A DNA stretch of 64,000 nucleotides, taken from NCBI GenBank assembly GCA_020747065.1, contig JAGMVK010000002.1, forward strand, positions 806,001 to 870,000. The letters are read 5' to 3'. Position numbers and translations under genes: made by a program. Every line of letters starts with the position of its first letter. Position 1 is the stretch's first letter. This DNA comes from Cadophora sp. MPI-SDFR-AT-0126. Lineage: Eukaryota > Ascomycota > Leotiomycetes > Helotiales > Ploettnerulaceae. Of this stretch, positions 1,847-12,927 are shown piece after piece. The notes below the pieces were generated by a model, which saw only the letters and a list, made by a program, of their open reading frames with translations, made no database searches and was not told the DNA's origin.

Positions 1847-2868
1847 GATCGAAATGCTTGGAAGTGAACAGTGATAATCGACATCTAAGTCAGTTCCGAC
1901 AATATGAGGCTGAGAGATTGAGGCCTTGGATGTCGTCCAGGCCAAAAGTGATGACAAAGAATCCGCTAATCAAAACACTCTAGCGTCGCCACGCTTGATC
2001 TAGGACTCTACAAACTCCCAAGTTCCCCGGGGGGGAGCCGAAAACAAAGTCCGCTATAGCACAACGAATCCCTTTGATTTGAGCCTTGGTGTGAGTGAAA
2101 TAATTGATAACCTAAAATTTAAATGGCTTTGGTTTAGGATGATGTTTAGCAGGCTTTGTTTTTGTGCGCTTTTCTGAGAGGTGGGAAGCGAGCGGGTGGG
2201 AAGGCGGGGAAGCGCTTTTGTTTACTTGCGGGTGTTGCTAAGTCTTGCTATCTATTTTGTCGATTTGGACGGCTGTAGGCTTTTGAGTGAGAATTTATTT
2301 TTCAGACTCTGGCATCATTTCCAGCCAACAGATCGACGTCCAGCAGCGTTTTCGCCGCCACCATAAAACAGAGCGTTTGTGGACTGACTGGCGCTTTATC
2401 TAGAAGTAAGAGTTGTCTCGACGTCTTCTGATCACTGAGAATGTTCTCTTCGCTTTCCCATCTCAATACGGTCAATATTCTTGCCGTTCACGTGCTTCAG
2501 TACCACTGCGCTTCTATTTGGCTATTCTCTTCTATAAAATATCGCTCCCAATTGACCATGAGACGGGATCATAACCCATTACAAAAAGCTCGCGCGCCGC
2601 TGCGACAGAGCTCTACTGTCGGCGTCATGCTGTGTCGGTCTCCAATCTCAATTTCTACCGCATTGTCGTTTTTCCTCGCAACCCGAATTGGTACGGTTTC
2701 TCTTTACTTCAAATCACTTGGCTACAATGGTACCAAATTCTACATCTGAACACCTCAGCTATCCCGATCTTCCTCGACATCAGGGAATCTCTGTCGTCAT
2801 CTCGCTTGGCCTTATAAATTAATGAGGATAACGAATTCGATGCTTTCGATTTGATAAGTATCAAAAAA

Positions 2869-3310
2869 CGAGGTATTCTACCATTAATTAACTTTCCATT
2901 TGGGGCATTAAACCCGGTTTCACAGTTTCTAATACAATTTTGATTTGATTATTTCGTTCAACGTTAAGCGTGTAAGCTTGTAATTTGACATTATTATATG
3001 TTAAATCTGAAAAGTGATATTAGAAAGATAAGAATGAGCATATACATTAACATACTCGGACGAGGTATTGTACCCCAAAACGCTACTTTATTTAGGGTAA
3101 AATACCTCTTTTTACAATTTCCACTGCAAACACTTTAATACATTACTTGATCAGATATCAAGCCTATTAAATGACTTACTATAAGTATGAAACATCCTTT
3201 TACCAAAGTTTAAACAAGAAGTTGCAAATATATTCAAACGAGGTATTCTACCCCGAACTGCCTCCTGGTTCAGGGTATAAACCCCCACTTCATATTTTTA
3301 ATTTGTGTAT
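2869..3310. repeat. Three degenerate direct repeats, period about 180-190 bp, with internal dyad
   Basis: A block beginning CGAGGTATTCTACC recurs at 2869, 3061 and 3239 (spacings 192 and 178). About 50-70 bases of each copy can be aligned; they share CGAGGTATT.TACCCC, then a GGG(T/C)A..AA.CCC-like half. In the middle copy 3062-3075 and 3095-3108 are inverted repeats matching at 13 of 14 positions around a 19-base loop. The other copies have lost most of the dyad. Looks like a decayed satellite or the relic of a small element. Confidence 0.6.
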
Positions 3311-3449
3311 CTAATTCTACGATATAAGTTCGTACTGAATCGCAAAACTCGAAATATGCCTTATCATTTAATCTTTTATTATCAAGGTTCGAGAGATGCG
3401 GTAATAAAGGAATTCACGGTCATTCTATTCGCACAGCGTTCCACAAATA

Positions 3450-3476
3450 TTTTTTTTTTTTTTTTTTTTTTTTTTT
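3450..3476 (+). repeat. Poly-T run of 27 bases
   Basis: An uninterrupted run of 27 T, followed by CTTT. It sits about 100 bases downstream of the stop of the small Cys protein gene on the minus strand. It could be the mark of a poly(A)-tailed retroposed insertion read from the opposite strand, or a simple homopolymer. Confidence 0.8.
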
Positions 3477-3579
3477 CTTTGAAAAGAAATGATATTGGTT
3501 TCGAGAATCAGAAATCTACCTAGATAGCCTTGGCCATCTATCGACTCCATGATACTATTGTCATCTGATTGATCGCCCG

Positions 3580-5163: not shown

Positions 5164-5932
5164 TCATTTTCTTTTGACCAAGTCTTCCAACGGGCAATCG
5201 GCATCATTCCAGTTCCTAGAAGATGATGTGACATTTCCCTTGCATCTCCCACATGCTCTCCCGTGTCGAATCATCAAGTAATGCAGATCAAACTTGAGGT
5301 GGTCAGCAATCTTGGTCTCTAGGTGTGCAAACATCCCATCCCGGTCAGTCCCAGAAGGTGCCCAGCCCAGTCACGTACAGATCCTGTACACATGTGTGTC
5401 CACGGCGGAGCTATTGTGTTGCATGCAGATTGATATAACGCAAGCTGCGGTCTTCGGCCCAACACCTGGAAACGCAAGGAATTTCTCGAATGCCTCATCC
5501 TTTGAGAGGCTTCGCATGTGCTCCAGGGAAAGAAGATCTATGGGCTTCACATTGGCTGGAATCTCTCCCTTCTCTTGCCAGACAACGTTCTCATCATGAA
5601 CCATGTCAAGGATGACTTTCAAGCTACGACTCTTCACGTTTCCCATGCCTCCAGTTTTGATGGCTTCGTAGAGATCTTCCACGGGAGCAAGCCGAACTGC
5701 TTCCCAATCGACAATTCCGATACCGTCTCCAGGATCACGCCTGCCAAATCTTTTCAGAATGCATGAAAGCGCGAGATGCATTCATGACATTGGTTCCAGC
5801 ACCGAGGCGCGCTCTGATGATCGCATCAATCAAGGCCGGCTCCTCTTCATTGCAGCTTTCGATCTGGAGTCCCAGGGATTGTTTTGATTGTGTGAACTCA
5901 ATCTTGCCATGTTTGAATAAAGCTATAGCCAC
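5164..5932 (-). pseudogene. Decayed HhH-GPD base-excision DNA glycosylase
   Basis: Reading the minus strand, family features appear in order: a degraded N-terminal helix region (PALIDAIIRARLGAGTN, where the family has a conserved ...LSxQTT-like segment), DWEAVRLAPVEDLYEAIKTGG, the helix-hairpin-helix FPGVGPKTAACV, the catalytic-Asp region AVDTHVYRI, and a C-terminal Cys group (RACGRCKG ... ADCPLEDLVKRK) ending at 5164-5166. Two lesions are visible: a one-base frameshift near 5762-5763, between NASRAFM and ILKRFG, and an in-frame TGA at 5371-5373 just before LGW. No ATG opens the upstream part. No intron repairs either lesion. The family removes damaged bases in DNA repair; this copy is most likely dead. 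Confidence 0.75.
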
Positions 5933-6696
5933 TGTTCCTATAGCAACCGCATCCTAGTCCTAACTTAGGATATCTCCTAGGGGTCTATTGCCACGGGTTT
6001 TCTGGGATCGTACGATCCGAGTTAATTTCTAGATACGAAAAGACTGAACTAAGGAGAAAACTCTGCTTCTAGTGAAGGGAAAGTAAACGATGCCTTCGTA
6101 TGAAAGAGTTGGCCTAGCAACCATAAGCGAATCACAGGTGCACAGTACCAAGACTAATACAGCGGTTCAACCCCTCACACTAAGCGCAATACTAGATCAC
6201 TTAACAGTATACAGCAAAGTGCAGATTTTACTGCATTACAAACATCTTCATTTTTTAATAAAATAATATACTTAATAATATTAATATGGTACATATAATT
6301 TTGTGGGGTGCGACACTTGCTTTGGCCGACTGTGAGCGAAGCGAGCAAAAGGAGAACCGGCAATTAATAAGCGAATACCAAACTCGATGAATGAGACGCT
6401 AGAAAATCTTTTAATGGGATTGTTATCGATGTCTCGACATCCAGTGGCCTCTCGAATAAGTTAAAGCGAGACTAACTAATTGCAACTTCATATTATATAA
6501 ATAATTAGTTATGTAAAATAAGAATAGTAGATTATATGATGAAACTAACGGCATTTTGCTACCATACGGGATGCGGACCCGTACCGTCTCACTTAGTTCC
6601 TGTCCCTCACCTCAGCTGAATTATTCTTGCAATTGAACAATCTATTGCGGCAAGTACCATACAAAAGGCGATTGCATTTTGTTTTAACGATCTTCC
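5933..6696. other. AT-rich gene-free stretch
   Basis: Strongly AT-rich between about 6230 and 6560, with no coding frame. Contains a GAGCGAAGCGAGC motif near 6332; a similar GCGAAGCGAGCG occurs near 14299. Looks like decayed non-coding or element-derived sequence. Confidence 0.45.
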
Positions 6697-9218
6697 TCAG
6701 AAGCCGAGTCGTGGGCTTTGCATGATATCGTCCTCGTAACCACCATGAAATTCTGATACAGCTTCCGATGCGCAAGATCCAAAGCTACTAAAACTGCTCC
6801 TATTCGAGTTAAAGCCATCTTCATAGCCGCCATCAGCACCCGCTTGTGGAGACTCTGACCAGGCCAGATTTGCAAGTGCGGGATATTGAGCCAGCAAAGC
6901 ACTCGGGAAGGCTCCCTTATCCCGTAATCCCTCTTGAGCCTCTTCCCGGCAAAGTGGCTGGATACAAACACTTCCTGCTTCTGATCGGAAATGCCGCGCG
7001 AGAGCATCTGCACGAGCAAAGCGACGACCGCATCCCCATTGTTCCCCTTCCTTCAGTTCGCCCTTACACACGAATTTCTTTTCCCCGGAATGGAGACCTT
7101 CGTGACGCCTTCTATCGTGCTGTCTCGCGAATGCTTTCCCGCAAACGGTACAGATGAATGGGCGTTCGTCCGTATGTGTTCGGAGATGGCTACGCAAGTT
7201 GTATGCGCGCGTGAAACGCTTGGGGCATAAGGTGCATTGGAATGTTGCTGGGTGATTTTGCCCGAGGGTTGGTTTTAAACGGTTTCTGGGGTGTGCGAGA
7301 GTCGAGGTCGAAGTCATCGAGAGCATAACTTTCGTAGCCCCCGAAAGTTTTAGACCTCTTGATGGGTTTTGGAGCAAGGAAGACATCGTTTTCGTAACCC
7401 GTTGCTGTTCTAAGCCCCTTGCTGGACGATGGAGCAAAGCTGACATCGATAGCGGGTGCGTGAAGTGTAGATTCTTCGCCTGCTCGTCCGTGACTTGCTG
7501 GAGGAGATGGTATGCGTATTGCCGGCGCCAGGTTTTTGGCCATTAATGGCTCGTTCCATGGTACACTGGACCCCGGTGCGGCCATGTTCCCCTTGTGAAC
7601 TTTGTCATCAGAGTTCCATGTTGCCACTTGTGATATCGACCTCCCTGCTGGTAGTCCTTGCGACTGTATTTGAAGAGATTGTTGGATCTCGTCAACTCCA
7701 CTGGCCGCTTCCGCTTCCAACGTGTTCCTCTTCGTTTCCAGCCACGTCTGCAATTCTACATTGTCTTCCCAAGTAACTTCTCGCAAGTAGTTCATAGATT
7801 CCACGTATCCGATAAACGAGCAAGCTAGATGTTCAGGTATGAAATTCCAGATAAACACGGGAACAGACAAAATGAGTAAAGTTGAATGACTTTTGTATAT
7901 CCCTTCGATGGTGGCATACTTCGCAAGTGCAGGGAATTCGCTGATCCATCGCGTCCAAGGTCTGGTATCCAGAAGTTGGTCCCCTTCTAGAGCAAGAGAA
8001 ATAAGGACATGTGGTATTGCCAGCTCACCGTCTGGCGAGATCTTGTTCAGCTGGCTTTCAGAAAATTGCTCGGGACAGCTCGGTGCTTCTAGAGGAACAC
8101 CTTCGGAATCCTCTTCGGAAAGCGACAATGAAGCGATATCCGCCAAGTCCCTTGAAACCCCGGAAGCCGTAGCCCCGGGCTTAGGGGAAGTCTCTGCTTC
8201 ATGATGACTTGGTTCTTTCCCTTTTCCACTTGGCTCTTTTGGAGCCCTTCGTGCGAATTCAATGCTAACAGCCTTTGCATTCGACGTCGTGACAACATAG
8301 ACAGGAGACCGTCGAGATTCAACTACCTTCCCGTACATGTCCTTCTTCGGTTTGTGATGCCTTAATCTAGCAAGCAACTCATTATGTAGCATGGCAGCAG
8401 AGAAGACATGTCGATGTTTCCACTCCTCGAGCACTTCAATCAAAACGTTGGTGAAGGAATGGCCACCTGGTTCTGGAGCTTGAGCTTCAAATCCGCATGC
8501 TGCGATTGTTTCCTTGATACCAACGGCAGAAGAAGAAGATGTTGTTGCTGATGCTGCTGAGCAGCAATCGAGCAGGAAGAGTACGTCTGCTCTGGCATTG
8601 AGGAATATTGGTTGGATAGCAAACCATTCGAGCGAACCCCGGTTCCAGTTTCCTGTTCTGCGAGTTTCCTGTCAGGCTCTTTTCCTCAATATTTGCTACT
8701 AATATCTGGAAATACCTCAGCCATATCTGCTGCCTCGCATCATTCATCGCCGCATGGCCTCCATAATACAGAATAACGAGATTATCTTCACTTCCAATCT
8801 CGTTCACCAATGCAATAGATTTCGTCATGATCTCGAGGAGTGGATTTTCTGTCGGTATAAGCCACGTCGTAGTCTTGAATCCGTAGCCATGCTCGAAGGT
8901 TCTGCACAGATCTTCCATCTCACACCAGACTCCTAGATGATTATCGTCTGCCCATCGGATCAAGACTACCTGCACATCTTTGTAGCGAGTCTGTGATCTG
9001 CCCGCGTTTGGGAATACACTGTTTACTGCCTTGAAGCAGTCAGCCAGGGAAGCACCAAGATTGGGCAGAAGGAATAATGTGGCGGAGGTTTGAAAAGAGA
9101 AGAAGCATACCTTCTGGAGAATTCTGGTGAAATCGTCAAGCTCATCCATGTGGTACAGTGTGAGGCTTGTATCATGGGTTCTGGATGACGGTGCGCTCGA
9201 CGGACGGCTTCTGCTCAT
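6697..9218 (-). CDS. Caspase-like protease fused to Crz1-type C2H2 zinc fingers
   Basis: Proposed exons on the minus strand: 9218-9111, 9029-8716, 8657-7356, 7285-6697, giving 770 aa. The N-terminal half is a caspase/metacaspase-like (peptidase C14) fold: VQVVLIRWADDN, the catalytic-His segment LVILYYGGHA and the catalytic-Cys segment VLFLLDCCSAA. The C-terminal part has ATFQCTLCPKRFTRAYNL, then a second finger (CTVCGKAF), the linker HSGEKKFVC, and a third-finger block with GCGRRFARADAL, a pattern typical of the calcineurin-responsive factor Crz1. Introns 1 (81 bp) and 2 (58 bp) have canonical sites and CTGAC branches. The last intron (70 bp, donor GTCTAA) is less certain; it is needed to pass from the caspase frame, which otherwise ends at 7190, into the finger frame. 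Just before the junction is a twofold ~20-residue repeat (FAPSSSKGLRTATGYEN / FLAPKPIKRSKTFGGYES). Alternative: two adjacent genes, with fingers from an ATG at 7446. Confidence 0.65.
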
Positions 9219-10497
9219 CTGAAATCTGTTTCAGTACATGAATCGCGGATATTGTTCCGGGGCCGAATAACTGACACTCTCATTTGAAGAGCTAGAGCTC
9301 TCAGCCTGCATGCCGTTGGCGGCAAGGGTCACAAATGGCAATTCCATGCTGCCTTCGATAGCTTCCATCGTGATATTGTACGGCTTTGTCGAAATTACAG
9401 GATTCAAATGAACTTTACAGCGTGAACTTATTACATTTGCGCGATTTCTGGAGTCGAACCAATTCTCTACTTGGAGGTGTGGCTTAGACTTCGAGGCTAA
9501 GCCGTTCTTGCCACCGAGTATGGAAGCCAAATTGACCTATGGGAGAGCCCAAATTTCTGTGTGTGCATTATGGGCCAAACGTGGCATATATGGATGATTG
9601 TCTGCCCATTAGTTAGATAAACGAAATGTGGAGCAACCATGATCCCCATACTGAAATATAATTAGGAGTGGGGTAAACCCCCGTGTTGTCTCGCACGTGC
9701 TACGCTTACCTGCATTTTCCAATACACTCGTCACATAGTCCCATGCACAGCTCTGACTATGCAAGCAAGGACAGCAAATGAGCTAGAAGATGTCAATATA
9801 CCTCTTATTCCTCCAGAATTTCTTGCCCGGCCATCAACATTGCTCGTGCCCAGTCCTCACCAATGGGCAGTGAAACCCCGACCTTGCCGCTCAGGGGCAC
9901 TTCGCTTACCATATATAAACACAACAGAGGTATTAGAAAAGTCGAATGTCCAGCCACGGCGCGGGACCTAGATCTGCGTTGGAGAACTAGGCGCCACGCT
10001 GCCGCGTGGCGCAGCTGCAGGCTTTCCTCATCGGCTATTTGGATAGAAGCAGAAGCGACATTCTGGTCAGGATGGCAGAACGAGTCCAAAGTTGGACTAA
10101 CCTCGGCGATTTGACTCCCTCGCAACTCTCCCGGCCAGTCCCTGATTTCTTTCGCTTCACCAAGGAAACCTCCTTGCCAATATTTCTTAGGCCTAGTCCT
10201 CACAATCCAGCCAATGCAACCCGACTTCTTCGAAAATAATCCTTGCCGTCTATTTACGCTATCTGGTGGTCGCCCATTGGAGGCGACAGAGTGCATTATC
10301 TACCATTTGATATTCTGCGTCGCCAACTGTTCACACGAACACAAAAGCTGAGCTTGAGCGTCCTGAGCTTGAGCGTCAAGTCGAGCAGCTAAAAAGTGTT
10401 TCCCCTAAGGATTCACGACCGAAGTCATGAGTTGTGGACCCTCGGTAAATCAACTGAAGCTGCGAGTAGGTATATCTGAGAAACATAGCTTCCGCCT
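9219..10497. other. Spacer between the caspase-like gene and Pol eta
   Basis: About 1.3 kb. A 163-codon ATG frame on the minus strand (9805-10296) has no recognisable domain and overlaps open frames on the other strand, so it is not called a gene. A GC-rich perfect hairpin at 9991-10012 is listed separately. Confidence 0.4.
9991..10012. repeat. GC-rich perfect inverted repeat
   Basis: GCGCCACGC, four-base loop TGCC, then GCGTGGCGC: a perfect 9-bp stem. It stands out from its surroundings. Could be a protein-binding palindrome or an RNA hairpin; no transcript is evident. Confidence 0.7.
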
Positions 10498-12189
10498 TCA
10501 GGGTTGTTCTTGCAAATCGAATGCCACATGCCAATCCAAGTGCTCGAGGACATTGGCGGGAGCGATTGTTTTTGTGCAGGTCGGGCACAGATAGCCATCA
10601 GTACCCCCGGTGTCTGGCCCATCAACTTCAGCATGGAGCGTAGATGTAGTATCTTTCATGCTTATATCAGGCCCAGGATCTGACTTGATGCGCTTCCGGG
10701 TTGGTCCATCACCGTCATCCTGTTCTGGAGCCATCGGCATAAACCTGGTGATTCGTTGATTCTTCTGCTCCTCCTTCACCAATCCATGGAAAGCTAGACC
10801 GATACTCAAGCATGGCCATGCGGGAGTCGCCTCATCTGCCGCAGCCTTCAGCTGCTTCATCGCCAGATCGAAAGCTGCATTTTCATTAATCTCCTTCTGC
10901 GGCGGTATTCCACACTGTTTTGAAATGGTAGGTCCAAAACGTCCCCGAATGTGGTGATGTACAACCAGTGTACTCGGCCGGTAGGAGCACCCCGACTCAG
11001 CCTCGAGATCCTTGAGCCGACTCAAAAGGTCAGCAGAAAACATTCGCAGCCAAGAAGATGCCTGACTGATGTCCGTGAGGGGTGGCACGAAGGTCTTCTG
11101 CGTGAGCATTGACTGAGGGTCAGTTCGAGGGACCACTTCGCTGTGATCGATACCACGAATGAGGCGGAAGAAGTATAGACCATCCCGTCCACCGAGTGTG
11201 GCGACCATGTGCTCTTGTGATATTGTAAGCAGGTCGGCGATGCTGCTGGAGCCAAATGCTTTCTCCGCCCTGGCACCAAATATACCTGCTAATCCTCGCA
11301 TCGAGGTCATCTTGTAGGTAGAGAGGAATGGGTCTACAGCACGCGCGCGTATCACAGTTTGCTGATTTGGTTTCTTGTACCCGGCACCAAGTTTTGCTAG
11401 TACTTTGTTGTGTGCAATACCCGCGGAGCAGGTATATTGTAGACTGTCGAAAATCTCCTTACGCAGATTACGTGTGATCTGAGCACCAATGTTCAACACA
11501 ACGTCATCCCAATCGAAGTGATGGGGATTGAGTGTATCCGCTGGGAAATCAACAAGATGATCCGTCTCCCAGTCAAGAACGATATCTTGTGGTGGTAGCG
11601 GAAGCAGGCTTTCTTGATCATTCTCGAGAGCGAGTTGCGGGTATCGCTCAAGGAGGATTGCATGCACCTGTTTGGAAAGATCCAGAAACACCTCATCCAC
11701 GCTTGCCTTCTCAATGCGCTGCAGTGGCGTTGGCGGTAGATGATTCATTATTATCTTGAGGCTTTTCCGCGACTGTATCCGGTAGGGATCCAGGGCAGCT
11801 TTGTCCCTCTTCATCATGGCTGGATCGGTTGCATCTTCTCGATAGGCCCAAGACGACTCGCCTTCCCTCCATGTTGCAACATGTTGCAGAACGATGTTGG
11901 GACATAGCCGCTTGACATCTTCAACGGAAGCACCCCGGGAAAAGCCAAAGCCGCGTGCAGCATAGTTAAGTGCAATGATTGCATTCCATTGCTGCACAGC
12001 AAGTGGCTGTGCAGGATCGAGTTTCAGCCGCACTGTCTCACACTGTGCGTAGAAAGCATCATAATCAACAAGCGCGATGACGCGCAAAGGCGAATGTGGT
12101 GAGTAGTTGCTAAGTCGTCGGAGATCGCGATACGTAAATTGAGATCTTGCACCATCCGAGGAAGCAGATCGCTGAGATAGACCTGACAT
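10498..12189 (-). CDS. RAD30: DNA polymerase eta (Y-family translesion polymerase), 563 aa
   Basis: Inserts bases opposite UV photoproducts during translesion synthesis at stalled forks in the nucleus. Single exon from the ATG at 12189. Catalytic acidic residues are seen in LVDYDAFYAQCE (Asp42, Asp44) and in the second motif ASVDEVFLDL (Asp165, Glu166); the little-finger and thumb region follows (GIAHNKVLAKLGAGYKKPNQ). A basic stretch (TRKRIKSD) lies near the end and could be a nuclear signal. The C-terminus has a ubiquitin-binding zinc finger with CPTC and HLDWH, expected to bind ubiquitinated PCNA. No clean PIP box is visible at the extreme C-terminus; a weak PIP-like NQRITRFM precedes the basic stretch. 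Divergently arranged with the alcohol dehydrogenase gene, about 740 bases apart. Confidence 0.95.
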   Translation of the reverse strand: MSGLSQRSASSDGARSQFTYRDLRRLSNYSPHSPLRVIALVDYDAFYAQCETVRLKLDPAQPLAVQQWNAIIALNYAARGFGFSRGASVEDVKRLCPNIVLQHVATWREGESSWAYREDATDPAMMKRDKAALDPYRIQSRKSLKIIMNHLPPTPLQRIEKASVDEVFLDLSKQVHAILLERYPQLALENDQESLLPLPPQDIVLDWETDHLVDFPADTLNPHHFDWDDVVLNIGAQITRNLRKEIFDSLQYTCSAGIAHNKVLAKLGAGYKKPNQQTVIRARAVDPFLSTYKMTSMRGLAGIFGARAEKAFGSSSIADLLTISQEHMVATLGGRDGLYFFRLIRGIDHSEVVPRTDPQSMLTQKTFVPPLTDISQASSWLRMFSADLLSRLKDLEAESGCSYRPSTLVVHHHIRGRFGPTISKQCGIPPQKEINENAAFDLAMKQLKAAADEATPAWPCLSIGLAFHGLVKEEQKNQRITRFMPMAPEQDDGDGPTRKRIKSDPGPDISMKDTTSTLHAEVDGPDTGGTDGYLCPTCTKTIAPANVLEHLDWHVAFDLQEQP

Positions 12190-12927
12190 GGCCAAAGCAG
12201 GGTGTGGATCTTGGGAAATTAAGCAAGGTCATACCAAGAGGTCTGAATGCGACAAAGATAAGGTAGATTTGTTCACCTTCCCGACCCTGTCAACTGGTCG
12301 CTCTTGTTGTTGTGTGAAAGGCGACCATCGCTTTCTGCAGAACTGCATGGCTCTAGTTAGCGTCACAGTACACAAAGGAAGTCATTCCTAGCTCTACCAG
12401 ATGCAAATCTGCAAGAAATGAGAGATTGTGTTTCCACTTGCTTATTTGATCCCCATCTGATGCTGCCGTAACGAGTCAGTGCATGTGTTTCCCTTCGATA
12501 TCAATGAGGCGATCTCGGGAAACAGCCCCACGCTAGCTCGGTACTGAACCCGCACTACTCCTGTACGTTCAAAGAGGCAGATTAGCATCCAAGATCTTAA
12601 TGTGGAACCAGGGAGGCCTAGTTGTTGCTTTTGAGTCACTCATGTTATGGATAAATTAAAATCAAGTCTCGACTGACGATAAGTCGAGAAAAACTAGTAA
12701 GTCTTCACGTCATGACTTTTGATTGACTCTATTATGTGCCTGGAAAGGTTTCTATAAGTAGATATAATTCTGGCAAGAAATAATAATCCAGCTGGTCCTA
12801 TCGGTCTCTAAAATTTCGTTGAAAGTATCTCGTGCGTCACTGTTCAAGACTTCCAGAAAGTCAAATTATACTTTCGGATAAAACCTTCAGAAAAGAACCA
12901 CGCCAATCCTGGCAAGCTAGTCTAATC
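12190..12927. other. Divergent intergenic region (Pol eta / alcohol dehydrogenase)
   Basis: Shared upstream region of two divergently transcribed genes; expected to contain both promoters. No coding content seen. Confidence 0.5.

Follow-up and report, generated by a model that had tools for sequence, protein, structure and literature searches.

The 64,000-nucleotide window analysed here (positions 806,001 to 870,000 of contig JAGMVK010000002.1; G000:C12:806001-870000 in our genome set) comes from Cadophora sp. MPI-SDFR-AT-0126, a root-endophyte fungus. Its minus strand carries BKA64DRAFT_653228, a gene of five exons (window positions 6697-9368) annotated at NCBI and encoding a protein of 801 amino acids, hereafter P0001. 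In this one annotated product, a caspase-like module stands ahead of zinc fingers derived from Crz1, the calcium/calcineurin-response transcription factor. A protein of this kind had been proposed in the first-pass annotation of the window, and our results support it. The features of the locus are as follows:

9276..9368, minus strand: exon 1 (31 amino acids), placed in the window from the N-terminus of P0001
9111..9218, minus strand: exon 2, where the first-pass model starts
9110-9030, minus strand: intron of 81 bp, required for the 770-residue product
8716..9029, minus strand: exon 3, which encodes the catalytic His (YYGGHA at 8768-8751) within the first half of the caspase-like domain
8715-8658, minus strand: intron of 58 bp, bringing the His and Cys frames together
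7356..8657, minus strand: exon 4, catalytic Cys, second conserved domain, disordered linker and docking-like motif
8578-8561, minus strand: Cys segment FLLDCC (FLLDCCSAA spans 8578-8552)
7796..8008, minus strand: the module's second conserved domain (VLISLALE...ACSFIGYV), modelled within 7697-8062
7424..7459, minus strand: PxIxIT-like calcineurin-docking segment PAIDVSFAP in the protease frame, located with a Crz1 docking profile
7328..7447, minus strand: two tandem 60-nt units (DVSFAP..TGYEN and DVFLAP..GGYES), identical at 39 of 60 positions
7286..7355, minus strand: annotated fourth intron, a predicted 70-bp GT-AG intron with weak splice signals, joining the protease and finger frames
6697..7285, minus strand: exon 5, encoding the Crz1-type fingers and a C-terminus like that of Crz1
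6952..7242, minus strand: Crz1-type finger block of 97 codons, matching Pfam PF00096

The landmarks on which the first-pass model was built (YYGGHA, LLDCCSAA, the triple finger from 7242 and the 70-bp GT-AG intron) were all located on this strand. Its 770-residue translation corresponds to residues 32-801 of P0001 (100% identity along the entire query) and falls short of the upstream exon at 9368-9276, while the His and Cys segments that it had placed in a single open frame are both present but need the intron at 8715-8658 to be united.

The front module is predicted to adopt a caspase fold, with 8-18% identity to the listed fold matches. It carries a His-Cys dyad (YYGGHA and LLDCC; the Cys motif in full is LDCCSAAS, with D202 and C204) that is intact in its homologues, the His in 110 of 110 and the Cys in 119 of 119 covering rows among the 120 listed. 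By fold and dyad, the module would be a clan CD caspase-like cysteine protease, its activity being predicted. The second conserved domain is modelled with a mean predicted local distance difference test score (pLDDT) of 74.7; a Foldseek search with it against PDB gave no match at E<=0.001, and the sole hit of a PDB sequence search (0.037) was irrelevant. A long linker, predicted to be disordered, leads from the module to the fingers.

The first-pass annotation had counted the protease among the calcium-activated type I metacaspases, an identity that we reject: Pfam Peptidase_C14 (PF00656) does not match P0001 at E<=1, and the Cys motif of the DSCHSG type that marks type I metacaspases, carried in this genome by locus L002, is replaced in P0001 by LDCCSAAS. 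In line with this, no usable match to the DSCHSG-bearing locus was found with the module as query. Peptidase_C14 does match some relatives. Its best scores in the genome are on two other loci (1.2e-31 and 7.3e-27), and two members of the module family are matched weakly.

Behind the linker, the finger block shares 87% amino acid identity over 105 residues, and 74% DNA identity over 310 bases, with the Crz1 of the same genome. The separate, complete Crz1 gene that the first-pass annotation had suggested looking for is present at C23:2198080 (L006/L059), 93-95% identical to the database protein P0140. DNA similarity between the two genes is restricted to the fingers and tail, and the N-terminal regulatory part of Crz1 is absent from P0001, whose residues ahead of the linker belong to the caspase-like module. 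Across the 97 finger codons, the two differ at 15, 6 and 55 first, second and third codon positions, respectively (nonsynonymous divergence, dN, 0.098; synonymous divergence, dS, saturated), a pattern of purifying selection, and the block keeps 80 of the 84 positions conserved in at least 98% of 109 Crz1 rows. Judged from these sequence comparisons, the fingers have evidently been retained as a working domain.

In a Crz1 tree of 33 rows (the fusion plus 32 of 35 chosen Crz1 proteins, the other three having been missed by the motif search), the tail of the fusion is placed within the part formed by Leotiomycetes and Sordariomycetes (95/95), where it has a long branch and is not a neighbour of P0140. 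Because of this position, we read the tail as a probable old or fast-evolving Crz1 duplicate. The present-day Crz1 of the species as its source is unsupported, since the long branch lies away from the own-species type, for which P0140 served as stand-in. As a separate observation, Podospora didyma has a second, long-branch Crz1-type finger protein (P0127, 995 amino acids) beside its normal P0216; no caspase-like module was found in P0127.

According to PMC3402410, most of the Crz1 proteins that have been studied dock to calcineurin through PxIxIT segments; such docking is also discussed in PMC3704241. In this regard, the segment PAIDVSFAP of the fusion resembles PDINVEFAP of the Crz1 of the same genome. 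A docking profile built from 76 Crz1 proteins scores 15.7 bits on the P0001 linker, the best of 1000 shuffled linkers reaching 8.6, and none of the other 119 listed homologues is among its 14 best rows; the strict motif occurs in 78 of 117 finger-matched rows. The Crz1-derived tail of P0001 has probably brought along a calcineurin-docking segment. The repeated motif of about 20 residues that had been noticed before the junction is real: it consists of two adjacent 60-nt units (7447-7388 and 7387-7328) whose identity was reached in 0 of 2000 shuffles and whose differences number 8, 8 and 5 by codon position, a distribution that does not establish coding within the annotated intron; Tandem Repeats Finder did not report the pair at 7328-7447. 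Of the two roles suggested for it, docking or cleavage linker, the former fits better because unit 1 overlaps the Crz1-like docking motif.

The locus is very probably one gene with a single-protein architecture. One polypeptide is favoured because a docking-like segment resembling that of Crz1 lies in the protease frame ahead of the junction, because motifs of the form [TGDH]GYE occur at least twice only in P0001 among the 120 listed proteins (one in the linker, two in the tail), and because sister fusions that need no splicing at the join exist in the same genome. The module, used as query against its own genome, gave 51 matching pieces, which were grouped into 26 loci besides the window gene. 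What follows the module differs between these loci (nine of 20 open frames scanned gave no family):

L037: Zn2Cys6 after the module, 19.0 bits, under the cut-off of 21
L038 and L041: Zn2Cys6 after the module, 27.2 and 27.0 bits, over the cut-off of 21
L034 (annotated as P0002): Myb-like domain, 21.8 bits, just under the cut-off of 22.9
L044: C2H2-like fingers, 21.0 bits, under the cut-off of 27
L039: TPR after the module
L035 (annotated as P0016): PF11001 after the module
L056: GMC oxidoreductase after the module
L046 and L051: ULD_2 in downstream frames, candidates for the same gene
L052: HET in a downstream frame, candidate for the same gene

In L044 the catalytic Cys, the second domain and the fingers share one open frame of 688 amino acids, and in L037 the Cys and the Zn2Cys6 domain lie on one open frame, so that neither needs an intron at the join; the protease frame itself carries the first CxxC at both L038 and L041. 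Three further observations concern this set. A caspase-like remnant at L056:2115-5363, with both catalytic residues replaced as stitched, is in one frame with the GMC oxidoreductase; the module of L052 lies about 1.2 kb upstream of its HET-domain frame, an arrangement that recalls fungal incompatibility proteins; and at L058 a tandem pair of caspase-like modules fits into about 3 kb.

Comparable variety is seen among the 120 listed homologues, 52 of which carry a homeobox accession (hand count). Other partners in other species are:

P0021: HMG and Zn2Cys6
P0040: C2H2, module with a weak generic finger match
P0036 and P0115: Myb-like
P0003 and P0006: HET
P0024: PF24883, which we take to be a NACHT-type domain
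P0054: C2
P0031 and P0119: Zn2Cys6, over and under cut-off, respectively
P0008, P0013 and P0030: weak bZIP matches, all under cut-off

Some of these joins could be gene-calling artefacts, that of P0021 in particular. The Zn2Cys6 fusion is common to two species, as L038 and P0119 of C. gregata, both with this domain, are tree sisters (100). A tree built by a quick method from 78 modules, 64 taken from the 120 homologues (the rows left out being mostly further homeobox ones) and 14 from the 26 loci of the own genome, needs at least 28 partner changes and, counted between DNA-binding and other tails, at least 14, with rows labelled 'other' including unscanned or truncated proteins; single placements are unsafe because several branches are long. 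The window module groups with the metagenomic P0010 and P0028 (Shimodaira-Hasegawa-like approximate likelihood ratio test, SH-aLRT, 96); the set around them includes proteins whose tails are Myb-like or HET. The nearest metagenomic proteins, P0010, P0028 and P0017, were rejected as Crz1-finger orthologues, their predicted tails having no fingers (calls that may stop at introns) and Pfam scans of the three finding no family. The window protein belongs to an ascomycete family whose members carry this one module in front of exchangeable C-terminal domains, DNA-binding in many cases.

Several known systems come close to the window protein. The PAH7/MoHOX4 homeobox proteins of Sordariomycetes share the N-terminal caspase-like module with a DNA-binding domain behind it (P0117, pah7, is 40% identical to the window protein over 55% of the query), but carry homeobox and rhodanese domains in place of Crz1 fingers and occur in many species; for several of them the database name is 'tyrosine-protein phosphatase non-receptor type 6'. 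The gene pah7 is described as orthologous to MoHOX4, with altered perithecium distribution as the sole phenotype detected upon deletion (PMC3360767), whereas MoHOX4 deletion gives smaller conidia (PMC2779367). Both are treated there as homeobox factors and 'caspase' occurs 0 times in either paper; the word is likewise absent from PMC8406175, which notes a Colletotrichum homeobox protein with a rhodanese-like domain. The L044 protein shares the module and C-terminal C2H2 fingers with the window protein, but its fingers are not Crz1-type and its catalytic His is often replaced. The combination is already visible to annotation, since P0329, of the L044 type, bears the database name 'Putative peptidase C14, caspase domain, Zinc finger C2H2-type'. 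Crz1/CrzA proteins have the fingers, C-terminus and docking-like motif in common with P0001, in which the caspase-like module replaces their N-terminal part. Caspases and the paracaspase MALT1 share the predicted fold and dyad, but at only the 8-18% identity of the listed fold matches, and the window protein adds a DNA-binding tail to its predicted activity. No recognised description of such protease-transcription factor fusions was found in the open-access papers searched; as far as these searches reach, the kind of fusion appears to be annotated but undescribed, and the Crz1 fusion to be a new version of it.

These findings allow us to propose one gene whose product joins the caspase-like module of this family to a Crz1-duplicate tail and works as a protease-gated factor, a statement to which, taken whole, we give a probability of about 0.45. 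The protease-gated mechanism is our preference, held tentatively. A signal would activate the caspase-like module, which would then cut either its own linker or some partner protein; this cleavage would release or switch the attached Crz1-type factor to act on its target genes. The factor may also be recruited to calcineurin, a possible second input.

Several points weigh against this proposal. No cleavage site was identified for the proposed linker cut, the catalytic-Cys block (residues 201-210) is modelled with moderate confidence (mean pLDDT 64), and on the whole protein the docking profile reaches a modest 11.5 bits, for a putative motif. The module and Crz1-type fingers occur together only in P0001 among 239 proteins compared (the 120 listed module homologues and 119 new ones from the best 120 of 1137 matches). 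Orthologues with both domains, which the first-pass annotation had called for, were not seen in searches limited to a length range and shared words, so that one may exist elsewhere; sister fusions, in which another DNA-binding domain follows the module, occur as one protein in several species. Further points concern catalysis and the junction.

The main rival, which we consider unlikely, accepts a single fusion but takes the module as a structural or oligomerising, pseudo-protease-like platform, with the tail acting uncleaved. The L044 architecture, kept across Leotiomycetes and Sordariomycetes (best 120 of 560), speaks for it: the C2H2-like pattern is present in 120 of the 120 listed rows and the Cys motif in 90, and in the 58 full-length rows (at least 780 amino acids) the catalytic His is kept in 16 and replaced in 42 (Y 39, F 2, C 1), meaning that not all fusions of this type depend on proteolysis. 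In the own genome, 21 of 26 loci have both dyad residues as stitched; L034 fails through stitching only, its annotated P0002 having both, while L044, L050, L051 and L056 are without one or both (L056 both, L050 the Cys; L051 is poorly aligned). Judging by these alignments, some fusions seem to have been maintained in the absence of catalysis. By contrast, the window branch keeps the dyad, and its integrity in all covering rows nearest the window protein is hard to explain without catalysis.

It is improbable that the DNA-binding tail instead brings the protease to chromatin, where proteins other than itself would be cleaved. The conservation of both dyad and fingers and the long linker, predicted to be disordered, agree with such targeting, which leaves the TPR, ULD and oxidoreductase tails on the same module unexplained.

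Equally poor odds attach to a reading as two separate genes, or as a fusion that has since broken up, with the protease ending at 7192, a 249-residue finger protein starting at the ATG at 7446, and the intron a gene-caller artefact. The protease frame is open to 7192 and the finger frame from 7542, an overlap of about 350 nt, and the stretch examined holds 27 GT-AG pairs (40-250 bp, among them the annotated pair) that would connect them stop-free. The pair 7355-7286 does work, but the exact joining of frames noted in the first-pass annotation is, for this reason, weak evidence alone. Moreover, the annotated donor, GTCTAA, is poor (rank 23 of 27 by a crude consensus score) and sits within repeat unit 2, splitting the tandem repeat. 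The junction is annotated at a position predicted from sequence, and a joined transcript is what we infer; as the repeat pair straddles a weak donor, the real junction could lie elsewhere, or an assembly indel could imitate an intron. According to PMC8664821, the 41 genomes of that study were annotated with transcriptome data by the Joint Genome Institute (JGI) pipeline, but the number of this strain is absent from its main text. The failure to see an exact-fusion orthologue also suits two genes, whereas the docking-like Crz1 segment in the protease frame, the purifying selection on the fingers and the single-frame sister fusions oppose them. Finger conservation, the docking segment and the sister fusions likewise lead us to reject a chance overlap of two open frames as the principal explanation.

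With regard to the assembly itself, L055 (contig C27, 32.7 kb) is 98.2% identical to L039 (C37) over 6.4 kb, with 24 mismatches and 68 gap openings; it resembles an unpolished duplicate contig and is an indel warning. Elsewhere in the window, a gene resembling that of DNA polymerase eta (PF00817, with a UBZ finger) lies at 10501-12195 on the minus strand, and a weak HhH-GPD DNA-repair match, under cut-off, at 5374-5781 on the same strand. A+T-richer stretches near the gene, at 6001-7000 (GC content 0.425) and 2501-3500 (0.359), are possibly decayed repeats.

If the protease controls its attached tail, fungi would possess a switch leading straight from protease to transcription within one polypeptide, with varied outputs, and the two papers cited above would have examined PAH7 and MoHOX4 with no attention to the caspase-like module that heads these proteins. 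Whether filamentous ascomycetes at large use one caspase-fold module to gate swappable outputs, often DNA-binding domains, with Crz1 plugged in, in one strain so far, is a doubtful generalisation; were it true, new protease-controlled transcription factors would arise through tail swapping, and the Crz1 case would couple such a switch to calcium signalling.
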